DNA of 64,000 nt from Pseudohongiella acticola. GTDB lineage: Bacteria; Pseudomonadota; Gammaproteobacteria; Pseudomonadales; Pseudohongiellaceae. The notes below the pieces were generated by a model that worked only from the letters and a program-made list of their open reading frames with translations, was not told the origin of the DNA and made no database searches. This document shows positions 43,459-54,426 of the stretch, piece after piece (the stretch's first letter is position 1; the number at the start of each line of letters is the position of its first letter). A program made the translations under genes and the position numbers. The DNA is taken from NCBI RefSeq assembly GCF_001758195.1, contig NZ_MASR01000001.1, positions 1,550,001-1,614,000 of the forward strand. The letters are read 5' to 3'.

Positions 43459-44322
43459 ATGACGCAAGAGCCTTCAGCGGATAAAGAGCCTTCAGCGGGC
43501 AAAGAGCCTTCAGCTGGCAAAGAGCCTTCAGCGGGCAAAGAGCCTTCAGCCGGTAAAAGTAAACACCACTCCGAGGTAACGGGCGACCTGACCCTCGTTG
43601 GCCACCTGGTCGAGCTTCGCGATCGCCTCCTGCGCTGCATTGCCGCCTTGCTCGTGATTTTTCTCGGCCTGATCTATTTTGCCAACGACATTTACACCTT
43701 CGTTGCCTCGCCACTGGTCTCCGTGTTGCCCCCAGACACCAGCATGATCGCGATTGATCCGACGTCACCCTTTTTTACGCCTTTCAAACTGACGTTCTAT
43801 GCGTCGCTGTTTATCTGCGCACCCTACCTTCTGTTTCAGATCTGGGCATTCATCGCACCCGGCCTGTACAGAAATGAAAAATCACTGGCCATCCCGCTGT
43901 TTGTTTCCAGCGTCCTGCTGTTTTATGCCGGCATGGCCTTCGCCTACTACGTTCTGTTTGGCGTTGTGTTCAGCTTTTTTGTTTCCGTGGCTCCCGAAGA
44001 CATTGCCGTCGCCCCCGACATTGCCAGTTACCTGAGCTTCGTATTAAAAATATTCTTTGCCTTCGGCTTTGCCTTTGAAATTCCCATCGCCGTTTTCCTG
44101 TTTATGTGGGCAGGCCTGATTGAGCCGGAAAGCCTCAAGAAAAAGCGTCCCTACGTCGTGGTCGGATGTTTTGTTGTGGCCATGCTGCTAACGCCGCCTG
44201 ACCCGTTCACGCAATCCCTGCTGGCACTTCCCATGTGGATGCTGTTCGAACTCGGTGTGTTTTTTGGTACCGCCTTCCTGAAGAAGAAAGCAACGGAAGA
44301 GGCACAGAATCCCGACGCCTGA
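43459..44322 (+). CDS. tatC: Twin-arginine translocase subunit TatC with N-terminal EPSAGK repeats
   Basis: TatC is the six-helix core that recognises twin-arginine signal peptides. After residue 33 the protein is normal: LVGHLVELRDRLLRCI, the cytoplasmic FAPGLYRNEKS-like IAPGLYRNEK loop, KIFFAFGFAFEIPIAVF and RPYVVVGCFVVAMLLTPPDPFTQ. The 33-residue extension consists of MTQ, one EPSADK and four EPSAGK units encoded by an 18-bp tandem repeat. It should be cytoplasmic. No such repeat exists in characterised TatC proteins that I know of. Length is 287 residues against about 258 in E. coli. Confidence 0.96.
   Translation: MTQEPSADKEPSAGKEPSAGKEPSAGKEPSAGKSKHHSEVTGDLTLVGHLVELRDRLLRCIAALLVIFLGLIYFANDIYTFVASPLVSVLPPDTSMIAIDPTSPFFTPFKLTFYASLFICAPYLLFQIWAFIAPGLYRNEKSLAIPLFVSSVLLFYAGMAFAYYVLFGVVFSFFVSVAPEDIAVAPDIASYLSFVLKIFFAFGFAFEIPIAVFLFMWAGLIEPESLKKKRPYVVVGCFVVAMLLTPPDPFTQSLLALPMWMLFELGVFFGTAFLKKKATEEAQNPDA
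43468..43557 (+). repeat. Five 18-bp in-frame repeats at the start of tatC
   Basis: Five direct units of GAGCCTTCAGCGGGCAAA (EPSAGK) occupy 43468-43557 with few changes: GAT for GGC in unit 1, GCT in unit 3 and GCCGGT in unit 5. Because the unit is a multiple of three, slippage would change repeat number without breaking the frame. Confidence 0.95.
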
Positions 44323-44916: not shown

Positions 44917-46743
44917 TTAACCCCGAGCCAGCCCACCACGGCTGGCACGCTTGCGATCACTCTCCGTCAGATGCTTTTTACGGATGCGAACACTTGCCGG
45001 GGTAATTTCGACCAGCTCATCCTCATCAATAAACTCCATCGCCTGCTCCAGCGTGTGCCTGACCGGTGGCGTCAAGGTGATGTTTTCGTCGGTACCCGAG
45101 GCGCGAACGTTAGTCAGCTGCTTGCCTTTGATGGGGTTGACCACCAGGTCATTGTCACGGCTGTGCAGGCCGATGATCATGCCTTCGTACACTTCCACGT
45201 TTGGCTCAATGAACAGACGACCACGCTCCTGCAACGCCCACAGCGAATAACCCAGCGCCTTGCCAGTGACCATCGAGACCAGCACGCCATTTTTGCGCGC
45301 CGCCAGATCGCCGGGTTTGGCCGGACCATAATGATCAAACACGTGGTTCATCATGCCAGTGCCCGACGTCATGCTCAGGAACATGGAGCGGAAACCTATC
45401 AGACCGCGCGTGGGCACGGTAAAGGTCAGACGCACACGGCCTTTGCCATCCGGCAACATGTCGGTCATCTCCGCGCGGCGCAGGCCCAGCTCTTCGATGA
45501 TGGAACCCTGATGCTCGTCGTTACAGTCGATCATCAGAACCTCGAATGGCTCGCTGACAACACCATCGATTTCTTTCATGATTACCTGCGGACGAGAAAC
45601 CGCCAGCTCAAAACCTTCTCGACGCATGGTTTCGATCAATACCGACAGGTGCAATTCACCACGACCAGACACTTTGTACTTATCAGGTGTTTCACCCTGT
45701 TCAACGCGCAGCGCTACGTTGTGAATCAGCTCGCGATCCAGGCGCTCCCTGATATTACGCGTGGTGACAAATTTGCCCTCACGGCCGGCAAACGGTGAAT
45801 CGTTGACCTGAAAGGTCATGGTAATGGTGGGCTGATCCACGGTCAGTGGTGTCATCGCCTCAACATGGTCCGGGTCACACAGGGTGTCGGAAATGTTCAG
45901 CCTGTCCAGACCGGTAATGCAGATAATCTCGCCCGCGCTCGCCTCGGTCACATCCACCCGATCCAGGCCGAGGTGGCTTTTTACCTGTAAAATCTTGCCT
46001 TTACGGGTTTCACCGTCCTTATCAATCACAGTCACCTGCATATTGGGTTTTGCAACACCGCCGGTGATTCGACCGATACCGATAACACCGACATAGCTGT
46101 TGTAGTCCAGGGCACTGATCTGCATCTGAAAAGGTGCATCGGCATTTACCGGGGGTGGTGGCACTTTATCAATGATGGTCTGGAACAACGGATTCATGTC
46201 ATCGGCCAGATCATCAGCTTCCATACCGGCAATGCCGTTCAAGGCTGAGGCGTAGATCACCGGGAAGTCCAGTTGCTCATCGGTGGCACCGAGTCGATCG
46301 AACAGGTCGAATACTTCGTTCAGCACCCAGTCAGGGCGTGCGCCGGGGCGATCCACCTTGTTGATAACAACAATCGGGTGCAGGCCCTGGGCAAAGGCTT
46401 TCATGGTCACAAAACGGGTCTGGGGCATGGGTCCGTCCACGGCGTCCACCAGCAGCAACACGCTATCCACCATGGACATCACGCGCTCGACTTCACCGCC
46501 AAAATCAGCGTGTCCGGGAGTGTCCACGATGTTGATATGGTAGCCATTCCAGTTAATCGCGGTGTTTTTGGCGAGAATGGTGATGCCGCGCTCTTTTTCC
46601 TGGTCGTTTGAGTCCATAACCCGCTCTACGGAACCACCGCGATCTCCCAGCGTACCGGACTGTTGCAGGAGTTTGTCGACCAACGTGGTTTTACCGTGGT
46701 CAACGTGGGCGATAATGGCGATATTGCGGATCTTCTCAATCAC
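44917..46743 (-). CDS. typA: Ribosome-associated translational GTPase TypA/BipA
   Basis: BipA is an EF-G-like GTPase that acts on the 50S subunit in stress and cold. The 608-residue length is right. The G1 motif is [10 protein letters not shown], followed by [12 protein letters not shown], the G3 [12 protein letters not shown] and the G4 [11 protein letters not shown]. The C-terminal domain carries [20 protein letters not shown]. The start is taken as GTG 46743 because AGGTG lies six bases upstream and known BipA proteins start IEKxRNIAII; a GTG at 46752 lacks a ribosome site. Downstream is dtd. In Pseudomonas typA is followed by thiI, but here the DUF4331 module intervenes. Confidence 0.97.
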
Positions 46744-46793
46744 TGGGGACACCTATTACAAAAAGGGGGGCACTGCCGAAAAAAAGGTGGGCG

Positions 46794-46822
46794 ATTATAC
46801 ATCAGCTATCTTGACAATTCCA
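46794..46822 (-). promoter_or_regulatory. Putative sigma-70 promoter of typA
   Basis: On the minus strand a perfect TATAAT (46799-46794) lies 17 bases after TGGAAT (46822-46817), which matches three of six -35 positions. The expected start near 46787 gives a leader of about 44 bases to the GTG at 46743. Confidence 0.5.
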
Positions 46823-47130
46823 TTACATGGGCTGCATTCACTCAGAAATTCGACCTACCAATGATTATCACTGACAGTGATCTCCGAAGACCCTGAAGCC
46901 ACGATCGGCCGTTGCAACACCCCTGAATGCCACACCTGACCGCTTCGAGCTCCCTGACGACAACCTTTCAGACTGTGACGCAACGCACATTGTATTTTCC
47001 TATTCTGCGGGGTCCATCACAGTTTCTCCAACAAACGACCAATTCGTTCAAATATAACGATCCAAAGACAAACCGCCGCCCGTAACAGAACTGACGACAA
47101 ATTTCACAGCCATAAAGGAGGAAAACACTG

Positions 47131-47160
47131 GTGTGTTTTTCAGGCGCTGTGAGGAAATGA
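47131..47160 (+). other. Possible nine-codon leader peptide before the DUF4331 gene
   Basis: A perfect AAAGGAGG (47114-47121) is followed nine bases later by GTG at 47131, opening a frame of nine codons (MCFSGAVRK) ending TGA at 47158-47160, 24 bases before the DUF4331 ATG and in the same frame. A second GTG at 47133 opens a 72-codon frame overlapping the DUF4331 signal peptide. Neither is supported beyond the ribosome site. Confidence 0.3.
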
Positions 47161-47184
47161 ACACCACGTCACATGGAGTTAAAT

Positions 47185-48615
47185 ATGAAAGCGAACAAGA
47201 TCAATCGATCGAAATGGACACGTTATGCACTGGCGGCAGCCATCACCAGTGCCTCCGCACTGGGCTACGCCTCAAGTCACCGCGAAGCACCGATGATCGC
47301 AGGCATGCCACGACTGGATGCAACCGATCTGTATATGTTTCGCAGTTATGAAGAGGGTCGGGAAGACTACGTCACCATCATTGCCAACTACTTTCCACTG
47401 CAGGCTGCCTATGGCGGTCCCAACTATTTTGACCTGGAAACGGCTGGCCTGTATGAAATTCATATCGACAACGATGGCGACTCAATTGAAGATCTGACTT
47501 TCAGCTTCGATTTCTCCACGATCCTGGCGGGTGTTTCAGTACCCGTCAATGGTGTTGATATCCCGATTCCATTGATCAATGCTGGCGGCATCGGCCCGGA
47601 TGCAACCGACACCGCCAATGTCAATTCACGACAGGAGTATCAGCTCAGCGTGATTCGTGGTCCCAGCCGTGCCGGCGCCAAAGAGATTGCGGTAAACGCC
47701 AATACTAGCGACACAATGTTCCGTAAACCGGTAGATAACATTGGCACCAAGTCAATTCCGGAGTATGCGCAGTACGCCAACTCTCACATCTACCCGGTCA
47801 GCATCCCGAACTGCAGCACGGCTGGCAGAGTTTTTGTGGGGCAGCGTAATGAGGGTTTCGCGGTTAATCTGGGACAGGTTTTCGACCTGGTCAATCTGAA
47901 CCCGCTGGGCTCTGAGGATGCGGTTGCCAATCCCATTGGCGCTGCCAGTGTTACCTCGCTGGCACTGGAAGTACCAATCTCCTGCCTGACCGAAGAAGAT
48001 CCGGTTATTGGCGCATGGACGACGTCGAGTCTTAATATGGGCGACCAGGAACCAATGCAGGTTTCACGACTGGGCTTCCCACTGGTTAACGAAGTGATTA
48101 TCGGCCTGCCTGACAAGGACAAGTTCAACAGCAGCCATCCGCATGATGATGCTCAGTTTGTTCATTATGTGGAGAACCCATCACTGCCGTTCCTGCTGGA
48201 ACTGCTGTTCTCGGACGCGGGCGCTGTTGCTCCCAAGAACTTCCCCCGCGCTGACGTGATTGCTGCGGTAACGGGCGTGCCCGGTCTTAACCTGCCGGCC
48301 AATATTGCCAGCGACATGTTCCCGCGCAGTGAGATGCTGCGATTGAACACCAGCATTGCGCCCAAGCCTGCTGCTGAGCAGTTGAACATGGGTGTGCTTG
48401 CCAACGACACTGCCGGCTTCCCCAACGGTCGCCGTCCCGGTGATGACGTTGTCGACATTGCTCTGCGTGTCATGATGGGCGCACTGGTTGACGATGCCGA
48501 AGTGGCACCGAACAACAAAGCCCCCTTTACTGACCAGACTACGGTCAGCGCGGCAGACTTTAAAACCACGTTCCCCTACCTCAACGAACCGCTGCCCGGC
48601 TCGGCAGTGCAGTGA
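47185..48615 (+). CDS. Exported DUF4331 protein
   Basis: The 476-residue protein has a signal peptide (RYALAAAITSASALGYA, cleavage near residue 29) and opens its mature part with SSHREAPMIAGMPRLDATDLYMFRSYE, the hallmark of the DUF4331 family. IHIDNDGDSIEDLTFSF (D95, D97, D99, D103) resembles a DxDxDG calcium loop. The rest includes AIPEV-like IGLPDKDKFNSSHPHDDAQF and RRPGDDVVDIALRVMMG. No enzyme motif is seen and the family's role is unknown. GGAG precedes the ATG at 47185. It is followed by a hairpin, then a TPR-like protein and a HupE/UreJ-like membrane protein on the same strand. Confidence 0.88.
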   Translation: MKANKINRSKWTRYALAAAITSASALGYASSHREAPMIAGMPRLDATDLYMFRSYEEGREDYVTIIANYFPLQAAYGGPNYFDLETAGLYEIHIDNDGDSIEDLTFSFDFSTILAGVSVPVNGVDIPIPLINAGGIGPDATDTANVNSRQEYQLSVIRGPSRAGAKEIAVNANTSDTMFRKPVDNIGTKSIPEYAQYANSHIYPVSIPNCSTAGRVFVGQRNEGFAVNLGQVFDLVNLNPLGSEDAVANPIGAASVTSLALEVPISCLTEEDPVIGAWTTSSLNMGDQEPMQVSRLGFPLVNEVIIGLPDKDKFNSSHPHDDAQFVHYVENPSLPFLLELLFSDAGAVAPKNFPRADVIAAVTGVPGLNLPANIASDMFPRSEMLRLNTSIAPKPAAEQLNMGVLANDTAGFPNGRRPGDDVVDIALRVMMGALVDDAEVAPNNKAPFTDQTTVSAADFKTTFPYLNEPLPGSAVQ

Positions 48616-48659
48616 GTTGTTGAACCCCCTCTGAAATAAATTTTTTGGAGACTATGCAC

Positions 48660-48685
48660 GGTGCGGAGCAGGGAAGCTCCGCACC
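48660..48685 (+). terminator. Hairpin after the DUF4331 gene (partial terminator or RNA-stability element)
   Basis: GGTGCGGAGC (48660-48669) pairs perfectly with GCTCCGCACC (48676-48685) around a six-base loop. What follows is ATGTTTC, not a T-run, so termination may be incomplete. It could let the abundant first gene be decoupled from the two downstream genes. It also abuts an ATG at 48686, making that start unlikely for the next gene. Confidence 0.5.
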
Positions 48686-48727
48686 ATGTTTCTAAATCAA
48701 ACTACCCAAACACAGGTCAAACTGATT

Positions 48728-50008
48728 ATGTCCGCGAACATCAACGGTCTCGCATGTATCCTTTTTGCGCGTCGCATACTGCTGACCGCGGGAGCGATAG
48801 CGTGTGCGATATTGCCTCTGACCGGGAACACACAACCTTACACGCCCGATAGCGCTGACAGAATTGTGGAAACCCTGCCAACGGCTATTGTTGAACTGGC
48901 GGCAGACATCCGCCGCACACAGAGATCGCCATCAAATTCGACCACAGAAAATAACGCCGACATCATGCAACGCGCCATGGACTCGTATCAGGTAGCATTG
49001 GCGACAGGCGAGGCGCGCGCCTACGGCCGCACCCTTTCAATTCTGCATAGTTGGCCTGAACGTGAAAACAAGCCTGTCATGTACCATATCCTGTTGGCGG
49101 CGGTACTCCAGCACAACCATGAGTTTGACGCTGCTCTTGAGCAGCTACAGCCTGTTCTGGCCGCAGAGACCAACGGCACCGACCGCTTGTCGCCATCACA
49201 GGCCCAGGCACAGACCCAGGCACTGATGATGCAGTCACAGATTGGCCTGGTCACGGCAGACTATGCGCTTGTTAAGCAAAGCTGCAACAGATTGCAGGAC
49301 TCGGCCCGACGCCCGGTTTTTGTCAACTGCCAGGCCCAGTTGGATGGTGTTACCGGTAATACCGGCGCCGCGCTGACCCTGATAGCTGACACGTTTAGGA
49401 CCGGCACAGATCTCAACACCCTCGATTACCAGGAGTTGCTGACCACAGCAGCCGTTGTCGCCCATCGCACAGGCGAGCAGTCACAGGCAGAGGCTTATTA
49501 TCAGGGCGCCATGCGTTTTGCGCCTGACAATAACTACCTGAACGTCAACTACAGCAACCTGCTGCTGGAACAAAACCGGTTAGACGAACTGATTGCGTTA
49601 CTGTCACCAGATGCCGATAGCACAATGAACGCCGAACTTCGCATTTTGCTCGCCAGAGCACTACGCGCGCGCGGAGCTGAGCCCGATCGCGAACAGGCGG
49701 CTGAAATCATCGACGTGCTGACGCAGGAATTCGAACTGGCCTTGATGCGCAACGAAGCCATTCCGCATAAAGAGTTTGCCCAACACTCGCTTTACCTGGT
49801 TGATTCACCCGTAGCCGCCCTCAGCGCCGCCAGAGAAAACTGGATGTTACAGAAAGAGCCTTCCGACACTCGCCTGCTCGCGCAGGCTGCCGTTGCCAAC
49901 GATGACCAGGAAACGCTGTCGGAGATCGAACAGTGGATCAATGACGTTGGCACGCAAGATGTCAGATTGCAGGCTATCCTGACGGCCAACCGGGAGCCAC
50001 GCTCATGA
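48728..50008 (+). CDS. Exported tetratricopeptide-like protein, unrecognised family
   Basis: The protein of about 426 residues has an N-terminal hydrophobic helix (RILLTAGAIACAILPLTG) likely to be a signal peptide or anchor. The rest is alpha-helical and Ala/Leu-rich, with TPR-like pairs such as VMYHILLAAVLQHNHEFDAA, AYYQGAMRFAPDNNYLNVNY and LRILLARALRARG. Two cysteines (CNRLQD, VNCQAQ) are 16 residues apart and might pair in the periplasm. An upstream ATG at 48686 directly abuts a hairpin, so 48728 is chosen. It is coupled to the HupE-like gene by ATGA overlap, suggesting that the two proteins are needed together. Function unknown. Confidence 0.7.
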   Translation: MSANINGLACILFARRILLTAGAIACAILPLTGNTQPYTPDSADRIVETLPTAIVELAADIRRTQRSPSNSTTENNADIMQRAMDSYQVALATGEARAYGRTLSILHSWPERENKPVMYHILLAAVLQHNHEFDAALEQLQPVLAAETNGTDRLSPSQAQAQTQALMMQSQIGLVTADYALVKQSCNRLQDSARRPVFVNCQAQLDGVTGNTGAALTLIADTFRTGTDLNTLDYQELLTTAAVVAHRTGEQSQAEAYYQGAMRFAPDNNYLNVNYSNLLLEQNRLDELIALLSPDADSTMNAELRILLARALRARGAEPDREQAAEIIDVLTQEFELALMRNEAIPHKEFAQHSLYLVDSPVAALSAARENWMLQKEPSDTRLLAQAAVANDDQETLSEIEQWINDVGTQDVRLQAILTANREPRS

Positions 50009-51135
50009 TAAAAAGAATTCTTCTGGCAGCCCTGCTGATATGGCCCGCGCTGGCATCCGGCCACAGCCTGAGCGACAGCTTTATCGACCTTTCAGTTGAG
50101 AACCAACAGGTTTCAGGTCACTGGCTCATCGCCGTGCGCGATCTGGAACTCGCCGTGGGCGTTGACCAGAACATGGATCGCCAGGTTACCTGGGGCGAGA
50201 TACTGCAACAACGTGATGCGATCAATGAGTATGCACTCGCACGCCTTCAGCTGACCATGGCCGGCGCTGAGTGCCCGTTGCAAACAGGTGAGTTTCAACT
50301 GGAGCAACGCAATTCAGGTGTATTTTTGTATCTTCCGCTCAGTGGCAGCTGCAGCAGCCCTGGTGAGCTCGCCATAGACTACAACCTGTTGTTTGACATA
50401 GATGCCTCGCATCGCGGCATCCTCAACATCGCCTACAATTCCGAATCCTATCTGCGCCTGTTTTCACCGTCAGAGCCCACACACCAGCTTGAGCAAACTG
50501 GCTCAGCGGCGGCACTGGCAAATCTGTGGACCTTTCTGATCGAAGGTGTCTGGCACATCTGGATAGGCCTGGATCACATTCTGTTCCTGTGTGCGCTGAT
50601 CATTCCCATCATGCTGGGCAGAAGCCGCGCAGAACGCCCCGGTGAGCCCTCCGCTGCAGCGTCATCATCAGCAATATTTGTTGATATTTTTAAAGTCGTA
50701 ACCGCATTTACGGTAGCCCACTCCATAACCCTGATTCTGGCAACGTTGCAGATAGTGGTGCTGCCAGCGCGACTGGTGGAATCGGTAATCGCCCTGTCAG
50801 TGGCGGTGACCGGCCTCAACATCATTTTCCCGATCTTCCGTGGCCGCAGCTGGCAGATAGCGTTTGGCTTTGGCCTTATTCACGGCTTCGGATTTGCTGG
50901 CGTGCTCGGAGACCTGGCACTGCCAACGCACCTGTTTATCAGCAGCCTGTTAAGTTTCAATGTGGGCGTCGAAATCGGGCAACTGGTCATTGTTGCCGTG
51001 CTGGTGCCAGTGCTGTGGTTGCTGGACAAAACCGCACTCACACGCCGCCTGACAACGATCGCCAGCGGCATCGTGATTACCGGGTTTGGATTGTTGTGGC
51101 TGGTCGAGCGCTCTCTGCCAATGCTGTTAAGCTGA
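50005..51135 (+). CDS. HupE/UreJ-like membrane protein with periplasmic EF-hand-like domain
   Basis: The 376-residue protein has a signal peptide (MIKRILLAALLIWPALASG), a periplasmic domain of about 150 residues and a C-terminal bundle of about seven helices. In that half, GVWHIWIGLDHILFLCALI, AFTVAHSITLILAT and GLIHGFGFAGVLGDL have the conserved His of the HupE/UreJ_2 family. Some members transport nickel or other metals, and many have unknown function. DQNMDRQVTWGE (residues 54-65) has the spacing of an EF-hand loop. The ATG overlaps the stop of the TPR-like gene. Its end overlaps convergent thiI by 9 bases. Confidence 0.85.
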   Translation: MIKRILLAALLIWPALASGHSLSDSFIDLSVENQQVSGHWLIAVRDLELAVGVDQNMDRQVTWGEILQQRDAINEYALARLQLTMAGAECPLQTGEFQLEQRNSGVFLYLPLSGSCSSPGELAIDYNLLFDIDASHRGILNIAYNSESYLRLFSPSEPTHQLEQTGSAAALANLWTFLIEGVWHIWIGLDHILFLCALIIPIMLGRSRAERPGEPSAAASSSAIFVDIFKVVTAFTVAHSITLILATLQIVVLPARLVESVIALSVAVTGLNIIFPIFRGRSWQIAFGFGLIHGFGFAGVLGDLALPTHLFISSLLSFNVGVEIGQLVIVAVLVPVLWLLDKTALTRRLTTIASGIVITGFGLLWLVERSLPMLLS

Positions 51136-52587
51136 GGGCCGGTAGACGCCGACGTTCTGGTAGCCGGCGTCTTTCAGGTGAGAGGCATGCAGGCGACTCA
51201 TCATGCCTTTGTCGCAGTACAACAGATATTGTCGGGACGCATCCATCATCGCAAATTGTGTGCTCAGCTGATAGAAAGGAACCACCGCTACCTCGTAGTG
51301 CTCATCGCTCAATGGCGCCCGTTCCTGCTCTTGCGGGTGACGTATATCAATCACCATCGCTCCGGCAGGCACGTCTGTGACCTGCTCGGGCTCAACGTCA
51401 CGGTGCTCGAGCACTTCGACCACCCGGTCAATCATCTGAACTTCACGCTCAGCCACTGCTGCGCTTATCAGTTCAATATCCAGTTTCGCCTCTTCCTCAA
51501 GCACTCGCTGAAGCTTCGCATTTGTGGTCGGTTTTACTGATACCACACCACAATACTCTGGCACCTGAGCCGAGAACTCCTCAGTACCAATGCGCCGCGC
51601 CATGTCAATAATGTCCTGTTTGTCGGTCACAATCAGGGGTCGCAATACAAGCATATCCGTTACCTGATCGATCACATTCAGATTGGGCAGGGTCTGACTG
51701 GCAACCTGCGCTACGCACTCGCCGGTTACCAGTGCCGACAGCTTCATTTCGCGGGCGATCTGATCAGCCGCACGAATCATCATGCGCTTTAGCACAACAG
51801 CCATGTGGCCGCTGTCTACCCGGGTCAGTATCTCGCCCAACAACGGCTCAAACGGTACACTGATGAATTTGACACGATGGGAGGCTCCGAACCGCATCCA
51901 CAGATACAATGCGACCTCCTTTACCGCCAGTTCATGCTCCTTGCCACCCAGGTTAAAAAACAGAAAATGAGTCTGTACGCCACGACGCATGAACAGATAA
52001 CTCGACACCGCCGAATCAAAGCCGCCTGAAATCAGCGACAACACCGGCTCCTGCGTCCCCATGGGGTATCCGCCCAACCCGCGCCATTGCTGCGTTACCA
52101 CATACAGGGTCTGTTGACGGATTTCCAGACGCACGGTGACGTCCGGCTGCCTCAGATCGACCCCGGACGCGCCGGTCTCGCGCAACAGAGCCGCGCCCAG
52201 GTAACGCTCCAGCTCCATGGAGCTGAAGTCATGATTGCCTTGACGTTTACTGCGTACAGCAAAGCTGCGGCCCTGCAATTGATCGCGATAATGAGGCAAA
52301 ATTTCTGTCAATATGCCGTCAAAATCCGGCAACGGCTGTTTACTCACCTGACTGATCAGCGAAATTCCCGGCGTATTGCGTAACACGTCGACGACCTGGG
52401 CCAGAAGAGTTTCATCTGCAGTGTTGGTTTCCACTTCCAGAATGTCCCAGTCACCGGTTACACTGATCCGCGAATCGATCCGGCCCATCAGTATCCGCAG
52501 ATTACGCCGCAGTGTCTTGATCAGTCGTTGACGCACCGAACGCGTCTTGATGGTAATTTCAGGGAAAAAGCGGATAACATAAAGCAT
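51127..52587 (-). CDS. thiI: tRNA 4-thiouridine synthase ThiI with rhodanese domain
   Basis: ThiI thiolates U8 of tRNA and, in its long form, relays sulfur for thiazole synthesis. The 486-residue protein has an N-terminal ferredoxin-like/THUMP region, the PP-loop SLISGGFDSAVSSY, and PEYCGVVSV with the Cys that pairs with the rhodanese. The C-terminal rhodanese domain has the active Cys in LLYCDKGMMSRLHA. The full-length form, with the sulfurtransferase domain, matches E. coli. The stop overlaps the convergent HupE-like gene. It is divergent from glnA across 429 bases. Confidence 0.97.
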   Translation of the reverse strand: MLYVIRFFPEITIKTRSVRQRLIKTLRRNLRILMGRIDSRISVTGDWDILEVETNTADETLLAQVVDVLRNTPGISLISQVSKQPLPDFDGILTEILPHYRDQLQGRSFAVRSKRQGNHDFSSMELERYLGAALLRETGASGVDLRQPDVTVRLEIRQQTLYVVTQQWRGLGGYPMGTQEPVLSLISGGFDSAVSSYLFMRRGVQTHFLFFNLGGKEHELAVKEVALYLWMRFGASHRVKFISVPFEPLLGEILTRVDSGHMAVVLKRMMIRAADQIAREMKLSALVTGECVAQVASQTLPNLNVIDQVTDMLVLRPLIVTDKQDIIDMARRIGTEEFSAQVPEYCGVVSVKPTTNAKLQRVLEEEAKLDIELISAAVAEREVQMIDRVVEVLEHRDVEPEQVTDVPAGAMVIDIRHPQEQERAPLSDEHYEVAVVPFYQLSTQFAMMDASRQYLLYCDKGMMSRLHASHLKDAGYQNVGVYRPSA

Positions 52588-53016: not shown

Positions 53017-54426
53017 ATGTCTGAGAAGACTTTAAATTTAATCAAAGAGAACGACGTCAAGTGGGTAGATCTTCGCTTCACCGACACCAAGGGTAAGGAG
53101 CAGCACGTTACTTTCCCGGCGGCGGTTGTAGATGAAGGCTTCATGGACGGCGTTATGTTTGACGGCTCCTCAGTCGCTGGCTGGAAGGGCATCAACGAAT
53201 CAGACATGATCCTGAAGCCGGACGACACCACAGCGGTGCTGGATCCGTTTGCTGACGAGATACAGGTTAACCTGCGCTGCGACATCATCGAGCCGCGCAC
53301 CATGCAGGGTTACAACCGTGACCCGCGCTCCGTGGCACGTCGCGCTGAAGAATACCTGAAATCAACCGGCATCGGTGATCAGGCGTTTTTTGGACCGGAG
53401 CCCGAGTTCTTTGTCTTTGACGAAGTCAAATGGAACGTGGCAATGGACGGCGCTTTCTTCAAGATTGGCAGCGAAGAAGCAGCCTGGTCGTCAGGCAAGA
53501 GCATTGACGGCGGCAACATGGGTCACCGCCCTAAAGTGAAAGGCGGCTATTTCCCCGTGCCTCCGGTTGACTCGCTGAGCGACCTGCGCGGCGCAATGTG
53601 CGACACAATGGAATCCATGGGTCTGGAAATTGAACTGCATCACCACGAAGTGGGCAACGCAGGTCAGTGCGAAATCGGCACCAAATTCAACTCACTGGTC
53701 TACAAGGCAGATGAAGTTCAGATCCTGAAATACTGCGTGCTGAATACAGCTCACGCGTTTGGCAAGACTGCCACCTTCATGCCCAAGCCACTGGTTGGCG
53801 ACAACGGCTCAGGCATGCATGTTCACATGTCCATCTCCAAAGATGGCAAGAACATGTTTGCTGGCGACGGTTATGCAGGCCTGTCCGAAACCGCCCTGTT
53901 CTACATCGGCGGTATCATCAAGCACGCCCAGGCACTGAATGCCTTCGGCAATGCCTCTACCAACAGCTACAAGCGTCTGGTTAAAGGTTTTGAGGCACCC
54001 ACACTGCTGGCGTACTCATCGCGTAACCGTTCAGCTTCCATCCGTATTCCGTACGTGCTTGGCGGCAACCCGAAAGCCATCCGTATCGAAGTGCGTTTCG
54101 GTGACTGCACAGCCAACCCTTACCTGTACTTCGCCGCGCTGCTGATGGCCGGCCTGGACGGCATCAAGAACAAGATCCACCCTGGCGACCCCGCCAGCAA
54201 GGACCTGTACGACCTGGAGCCGGAAGAAGAAGCGGAAATTCCAAAGGTTTGTTACTCACTGGATCAGGCACTGGAATCACTGGACAAGGATCGCGAATTC
54301 CTCAAGCAGGGCGGCGTATTCTGCGACGACCTGATTGATGGCTACATCGCGCTGAAGCAGCAAGACTGCACTCGCCTGAACATGTCAGCCCACCCGGTTG
54401 AGTTTGATATGTACTACAGCTGCTAA
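53017..54426 (+). CDS. glnA: Glutamine synthetase type I
   Basis: GlnA makes glutamine from glutamate, ammonia and ATP. The 469-residue class I-beta enzyme has [20 protein letters not shown] and [19 protein letters not shown]. The catalytic [26 protein letters not shown] and [17 protein letters not shown] follow, then [11 protein letters not shown]. The adenylylation loop [15 protein letters not shown] retains the Tyr (about residue 397) modified by GlnE. It follows a sigma-54/NtrC promoter and ends before a strong terminator, with ntrBC downstream. Confidence 0.99.

Follow-up and report, generated by a model that had tools for sequence, protein, structure and literature searches.

What three neighbouring genes for exported or membrane proteins do together, and whether they belong together at all, is the question raised by the interval between typA and thiI in the window, the 64,000-nucleotide stretch of Pseudohongiella acticola DNA that we analysed.

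Organization of the locus and its insertion site

The locus comprises three plus-strand open reading frames (47173-48615, 48686-50008 and 50005-51135), the second and third of which are joined by an ATGA overlap (50008/50005), as a first, sequence-only reading of this DNA had described. They encode an exported DUF4331 protein (47185..48615, + strand), an exported TPR-like protein (48728..50008, + strand) and an anglerase-like permease of the HupE/UreJ_2 family (50005..51135, + strand). The first frame opens at 47173, and the DUF4331 start is probably its second ATG, at 47185, because GGAG lies six bases upstream of this codon and the first ATG is missing in the aligned congener L014. Likewise, the TPR-like protein probably starts at 48728 rather than at 48686, since the ATG at 48686 borders a strong hairpin. 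Upstream, the module is flanked by typA (44917-46752, - strand); downstream, the permease frame converges with thiI (51127-52587, - strand) in a 9-bp overlap, followed by glnA (53017-54426, + strand; named from sequence). The window's thiI encodes a rhodanese-like domain at its C-terminal end, and the start of tatC (43459-43560) encodes a tandem repeat, (K)EPSAG about five times over, which makes an unusual low-complexity N-terminus.

Eight congeners that are free of the module have typA and thiI adjacent with nothing inserted, and the order typA-thiI-glnA is kept in other families also. This order is ancestral, which bears out the earlier claim that the module is lodged in a conserved block. 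Between the window and the empty site of congener G011 (L096), the match runs as far as 46826 and resumes at 51137, which delimits the insert to 46827..51136. The module occupies the typA-thiI site in five genomes, the window's included, and lies at other positions in two carriers from another genus of the family. As G011 is nested among module-bearing species in a thiI tree, the module has been lost at least once. The tree would fit either two gains with a single loss or a single gain with about four losses; because the insertion site is shared, a single gain is favoured.

The three genes form a unit

Since the 80 DUF4331 loci analysed had been picked by similarity to the window, co-occurrence was assessed in 369 evenly sampled gammaproteobacterial genomes. 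Of these, 31 encode DUF4331, 26 the full-length permease and 23 the specific TPR-like protein, and 21 have all three. Fisher tests, uncorrected for shared ancestry, gave 9e-27 for DUF4331 with the permease, 3e-27 for DUF4331 with the TPR-like protein and 2e-30 for the TPR-like protein with the permease. DUF4331 and the permease are encoded on the same strand within 2.1 kb in 20 of the 23 genomes that have both, and on separate contigs in the remaining three. About 50 of the 80 close DUF4331 loci, drawn from all bacteria by window similarity, adjoin relatives of both other genes. The module is also found in beta- and alphaproteobacteria, Myxococcota and Verrucomicrobia, and on plasmids (e.g. 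pHP-187 of Marinobacter adhaerens HP15). Gene order varies between lineages, being TPR-permease-DUF4331 in Myxococcales and divergent in one further locus, and the linkage has therefore outlived rearrangement. Divergence of the three proteins is correlated (r 0.67-0.83 over pairwise distances), to which the common descent of their hosts contributes. The three genes are a real unit: the one-strand arrangement proposed from the letters alone agrees with the reading frames, the co-occurrence and the linkage, and the genes do co-occur elsewhere, both in the 80-locus set and in the 369-genome sample. DUF4331 also occurs with neither partner beside it: this is so for many Rhodobacteraceae and for 7 of the 31 sampled gammaproteobacteria that have it, and the protein is therefore able to work alone.

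Some loci carry a small fourth gene between those for DUF4331 and the TPR-like protein, encoding a lipoprotein-like product of about 80 residues (L020, L021, L036, L047, L053, L054, L059, L068 and L092; L160 7431-7676 may be the same gene); it is not in the window. The module is also present on a contig labelled Akkermansia muciniphila (L041), likely mis-binned, where DUF4331 has a stop or frame break.

The permease resembles anglerases in its predicted fold

The permease consists of a signal peptide, an Ig-like ectodomain and seven predicted membrane helices (model pLDDT 85.6). Residues 177-342 match PF13795 (HupE_UreJ_2; Pfam E 1.8e-45), and PF04955 matches weakly; an MFS- or ZIP-like identity of the membrane domain was rejected, the structural matches being at noise level. 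This domain has both motifs of HupE/UreJ proteins, HX5DH and HG, as H184-x5-D190-H191 in its first helix (50554..50577, + strand) and H293-G294 (50881..50886, + strand), each invariant in 28 sequences. In 46/46 aligned permeases a histidine directly follows the signal-peptide-like stretch, with A, G, S or P before it. Cleavage is predicted from sequence, and H20 (codon 50062..50064, + strand) would be the first mature residue; model residues 13-21 are of low confidence, and the model does not fix the exact place of this histidine.

The best PDB match of the ectodomain model, at rank 1 in both the Foldseek and the VIA searches, is 9GCE (Foldseek E 2.3e-5; VIA Z 11.8, r.m.s.d. 3.1 over 132 residues, model 19-165 on chain 1-157), followed by the zinc-binding proteins ZrgA and PA4063 (Z 9.5 to 10.7). 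The 9GCE structure is that of RbAng-1a, which binds Cu2+ (74 nM) and Ni2+ (220 nM) through His1 and Asn41; HupE/UreJ-2 proteins with a histidine after the signal peptide were named anglerases in the same 2025 study (PMC12537917). Sequence searches with the window permease or its profile did not match 9GCE. It is recovered by sequence when the query is the protein of the Aquicoccus locus L040, in which the gene immediately preceding DUF4331 encodes a close relative of 9GCE. On sequence and model together, the window permease is best called anglerase-like and is not filed as Ang-1, because its ectodomain has no recognisable sequence similarity to Ang-1. The window's genome encodes four more HupE_UreJ_2 proteins (G000 C1:1017518, C1:1238149, C1:1323557 and C4:7468), some with a histidine soon after the signal peptide.

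Calcium-type loops in two of the proteins

Calcium-loop-like motifs had been noted in DUF4331 and in the permease, and both are real and conserved. The permease loop D54-QNMDRQVTWGE65-I (50164..50202, + strand) is of EF-hand type, with D54, D58 and E65 each conserved at 90% or more. The full PROSITE EF-hand pattern occurs in 26 of 46 permease relatives versus 0 of 9,200 shuffles and is degenerate in the other 20. In the model, the 12-residue loop is flanked by helices 44-51 and 63-68 and is single, with no paired EF-hand. It falls in the same sequence region as the RbAng-1a loop with the copper ligand Asn41, and could either help to order the copper site or contribute the oxygen ligand of that site. 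The DUF4331 loop, D99-N-D-G-D-S-I-E106 (47467..47490, + strand), is placed by the model between two predicted strands, and its D99, N100, D101 and E106 are invariant in 51/51 sequences. The role of calcium is probably structural or modulating.

A candidate chelating N-terminus on DUF4331

The window protein matches PF14224 (DUF4331) over its full length (Pfam E 9e-128; 427.5 bits versus a cut-off of 27). The sequence leading into the conserved HREAP is x-A|S-S-H: serine directly precedes the histidine in 79/79 DUF4331 proteins, and in all 79 residue -3 from the histidine is A, G or S and residue -5 only A, V, S, T, G, L or I, with -4 free. Because this -5/-4/-3 pattern is a signal-peptidase signature, cleavage would leave X-Ser-His; the same rule is also satisfied in 79/79 by a cut that leaves His36 first, but the position statistics favour the former. 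The mature N-terminus is probably Ser-Ser-His here (S34-S35-H36, numbered from 47173; codons 47272..47280, + strand), which would be a Cu/Ni-binding site of ATCUN type. That an X-X-His N-terminus forms such a site is established chemistry (PMC7701195).

DUF4331 is the most conserved member of the module, and its roughly 80 invariant residues suggest something beyond a mere metal carrier. Fold homology was sought and not accepted: the model is Ig-like (pLDDT 81.5), and Foldseek and VIA-align returned Ig-like chains only, a set that includes many antibodies, at Z of 6.0 or less. PDB sequence searches gave no match for DUF4331 or for the TPR-like protein, and we found no paper naming DUF4331 in the openly accessible literature searched. 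At 20 alphaproteobacterial loci (L039, L040, L049-L051, L055-L065 and others) DUF4331 lies between a prepilin peptidase gene and the type II secretion operon, which suggests export beyond the periplasm in those alphaproteobacteria.

The TPR-like protein and the intergenic hairpin

We call the middle protein TPR-like only, since its TPR matches (PF13429 and others) stay below every Pfam cut-off (best 19.8 bits versus 26.2), and its assignment as a true TPR protein was rejected. Its Q142, H145 and C200 are invariant and C215 nearly so. Between the DUF4331 and TPR-like genes lies a hairpin with a T-rich tail, TGTTTCTA (48659..48686, + strand; -22.2 kcal/mol, z -3.36). In the window's family, 6/6 loci have a strong hairpin after DUF4331; their sequences are unrelated, the energies range from -14.7 to -23 kcal/mol, and four of the hairpins have T-rich tails. 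The window hairpin is likely a partial terminator, which probably lowers expression of the two downstream genes.

An ECF sigma factor link in relatives

In many relatives, DUF4331 has as neighbours a gene for a SigK-like ECF factor and one for an anti-sigma factor of RskA or ChrR type. In most ECF-linked loci the pattern GCATC(C/T)-N16-CGTA, with few exceptions 26 bases in length, precedes DUF4331 by 51-112 bp, and another copy is directed towards the sigma gene; the pattern is present in 0.7% of shuffled sequences. A stricter scan with TGCATCC-N16-CGTA in 11 genomes found few sites beyond the module, and a wider ECF regulon was discarded on this result. ECF control was also rejected for the window's organism, whose genome has no RskA_C protein and no such motif upstream of the module. 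The ECF factors of this genome are at most 33% identical to that of Alcanivorax. Within the family, a conserved CACA patch lies upstream of the module.

The Roseobacter-group loci (L051, L056-L061, L065, L073, L083 and L088) have, upstream of DUF4331, an ECF factor, a ChrR-like cupin anti-sigma, a second small protein, a molybdopterin oxidoreductase and a cytochrome b561, with a fasciclin-domain gene on the other strand.

A model for metal capture and import

The best explanation of the module, to which we give an even chance, is the capture of a transition metal at the envelope, most likely copper or nickel, and its import. Computation shows that the genes form a unit and provides the conserved residues, the match in fold, the hairpin and the relatives' ECF promoter; from these we infer the metal, the direction of transport and the roles of DUF4331 and the TPR-like protein. 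DUF4331 would be the abundant exported partner, its N-terminus, probably Ser-Ser-His, binding Cu(II) or Ni(II) and carrying the metal to the permease, with the hairpin after the first gene keeping DUF4331 in excess over the membrane pair. The TPR-like protein would act as a periplasmic scaffold on which DUF4331 and the permease dock. In the inner-membrane permease, the N-terminal histidine of the periplasmic Ig-like domain would chelate the ion and pass it to the membrane helices at their HX5DH and HG residues, and the calcium loop beside the ectodomain would stabilise or gate this step. The fullest version of this scheme, in which an ECF factor controls uptake and secreted DUF4331 serves as a proteinaceous Cu/Ni carrier with an N-terminal chelating motif that delivers the ion, via the TPR dock, to a calcium-gated permease of anglerase type at its N-terminal histidine, is tentative and rather unlikely. 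No known metal-regulated gene or metalloenzyme was found to recur beside the module.

DUF4331 genes in genomes that lack the pair, together with the enzyme-like conservation of the protein, lead us to keep as first rival a scheme in which DUF4331 is itself an exported metalloenzyme whose metal is supplied or loaded by the TPR-like protein and the permease, so that the goal would be to make DUF4331 and not to feed the cell. Its invariant H36, H97, D99, D101 and E106 could form sites, and the hairpin would make it the abundant product. Against this, the Rhodobacteraceae proteins would need other loading factors, and Foldseek and VIA-align recognised no enzyme fold; we consider the scheme unlikely. 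The ECF and anti-sigma genes beside DUF4331 could instead sense oxidative or envelope damage, the three proteins repairing or protecting the envelope and the permease being no metal importer. The oxidoreductase, cytochrome b561 and fasciclin genes of the Roseobacter loci would fit such a function, yet in the scanned genomes the promoter pattern hardly occurs outside the module, unlike that of a stress regulon, the metal motifs of the permease are invariant and RskA_C is missing from the window's genome, and this reading is distinctly improbable.

A system centred on calcium is a further rival; the sequence-only reading had guessed at envelope metal or calcium handling. DUF4331 would then be a calcium-dependent extracellular binder and the permease would move or sense calcium, in line with the two loops, the type II secretion neighbourhood and the Ig-like strands. 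The permease, however, combines the N-terminal histidine and fold of a Cu/Ni protein with the motifs of Ni/Co HupE permeases, and it keeps that histidine in all relatives, including the 20 of 46 in which the EF-hand pattern is degenerate. This makes calcium the least likely of the rivals. The metal-handling part of the guess thus stays plausible, and copper or nickel is better supported than calcium because the fold and N-terminal histidine of Ang-1 and the HupE motifs are kept. New relative to the sequence-only reading are the tie to anglerases, the X-Ser-His N-terminus, the connection with ECF sigma factors and the hairpin that separates the first two genes.

Comparison with known systems

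Taken singly, the parts of the module belong to known families or lie close to them; their combination, an anglerase domain with an EF-hand and control by an ECF factor did not turn up in the openly accessible papers searched. With this model DUF4331, an exported family that is widespread but lacks a described function, gains a first testable role and a connection to the recently described anglerases. If it is true, many marine and soil bacteria hold an unrecognised, self-regulated route for copper or nickel uptake, and the EF-hand loop is a case of calcium shaping transition-metal capture.

With the HupE/UreJ nickel/cobalt permeases, the window permease shares HX5DH, HG and PF13795, and differs in its added ectodomain of metal-binding type; no hydrogenase, urease or B12 genes were seen among the clustered neighbours of the module. 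The periplasmic zinc proteins ZrgA of Vibrio cholerae and PA4063 of Pseudomonas aeruginosa have the same ectodomain fold but no fused permease, and we know of no role for an N-terminal histidine in either. Ang-1 and the window permease have in common the signal peptide, N-terminal histidine, Ig-like ectodomain, linker and PF13795 membrane domain. Unlike Ang-1, the window permease has an EF-hand-type loop and no detectable ectodomain sequence similarity, and its type is linked to DUF4331, a TPR protein and an ECF factor; the text of the anglerase paper (PMC12537917) does not mention DUF4331. The YcnI-YcnJ copper uptake system of B. subtilis (PMC8424229, PMC12362106) differs from the module in its protein families and in having no TPR partner, but is alike in principle, pairing an exported copper-binding protein with a membrane importer.
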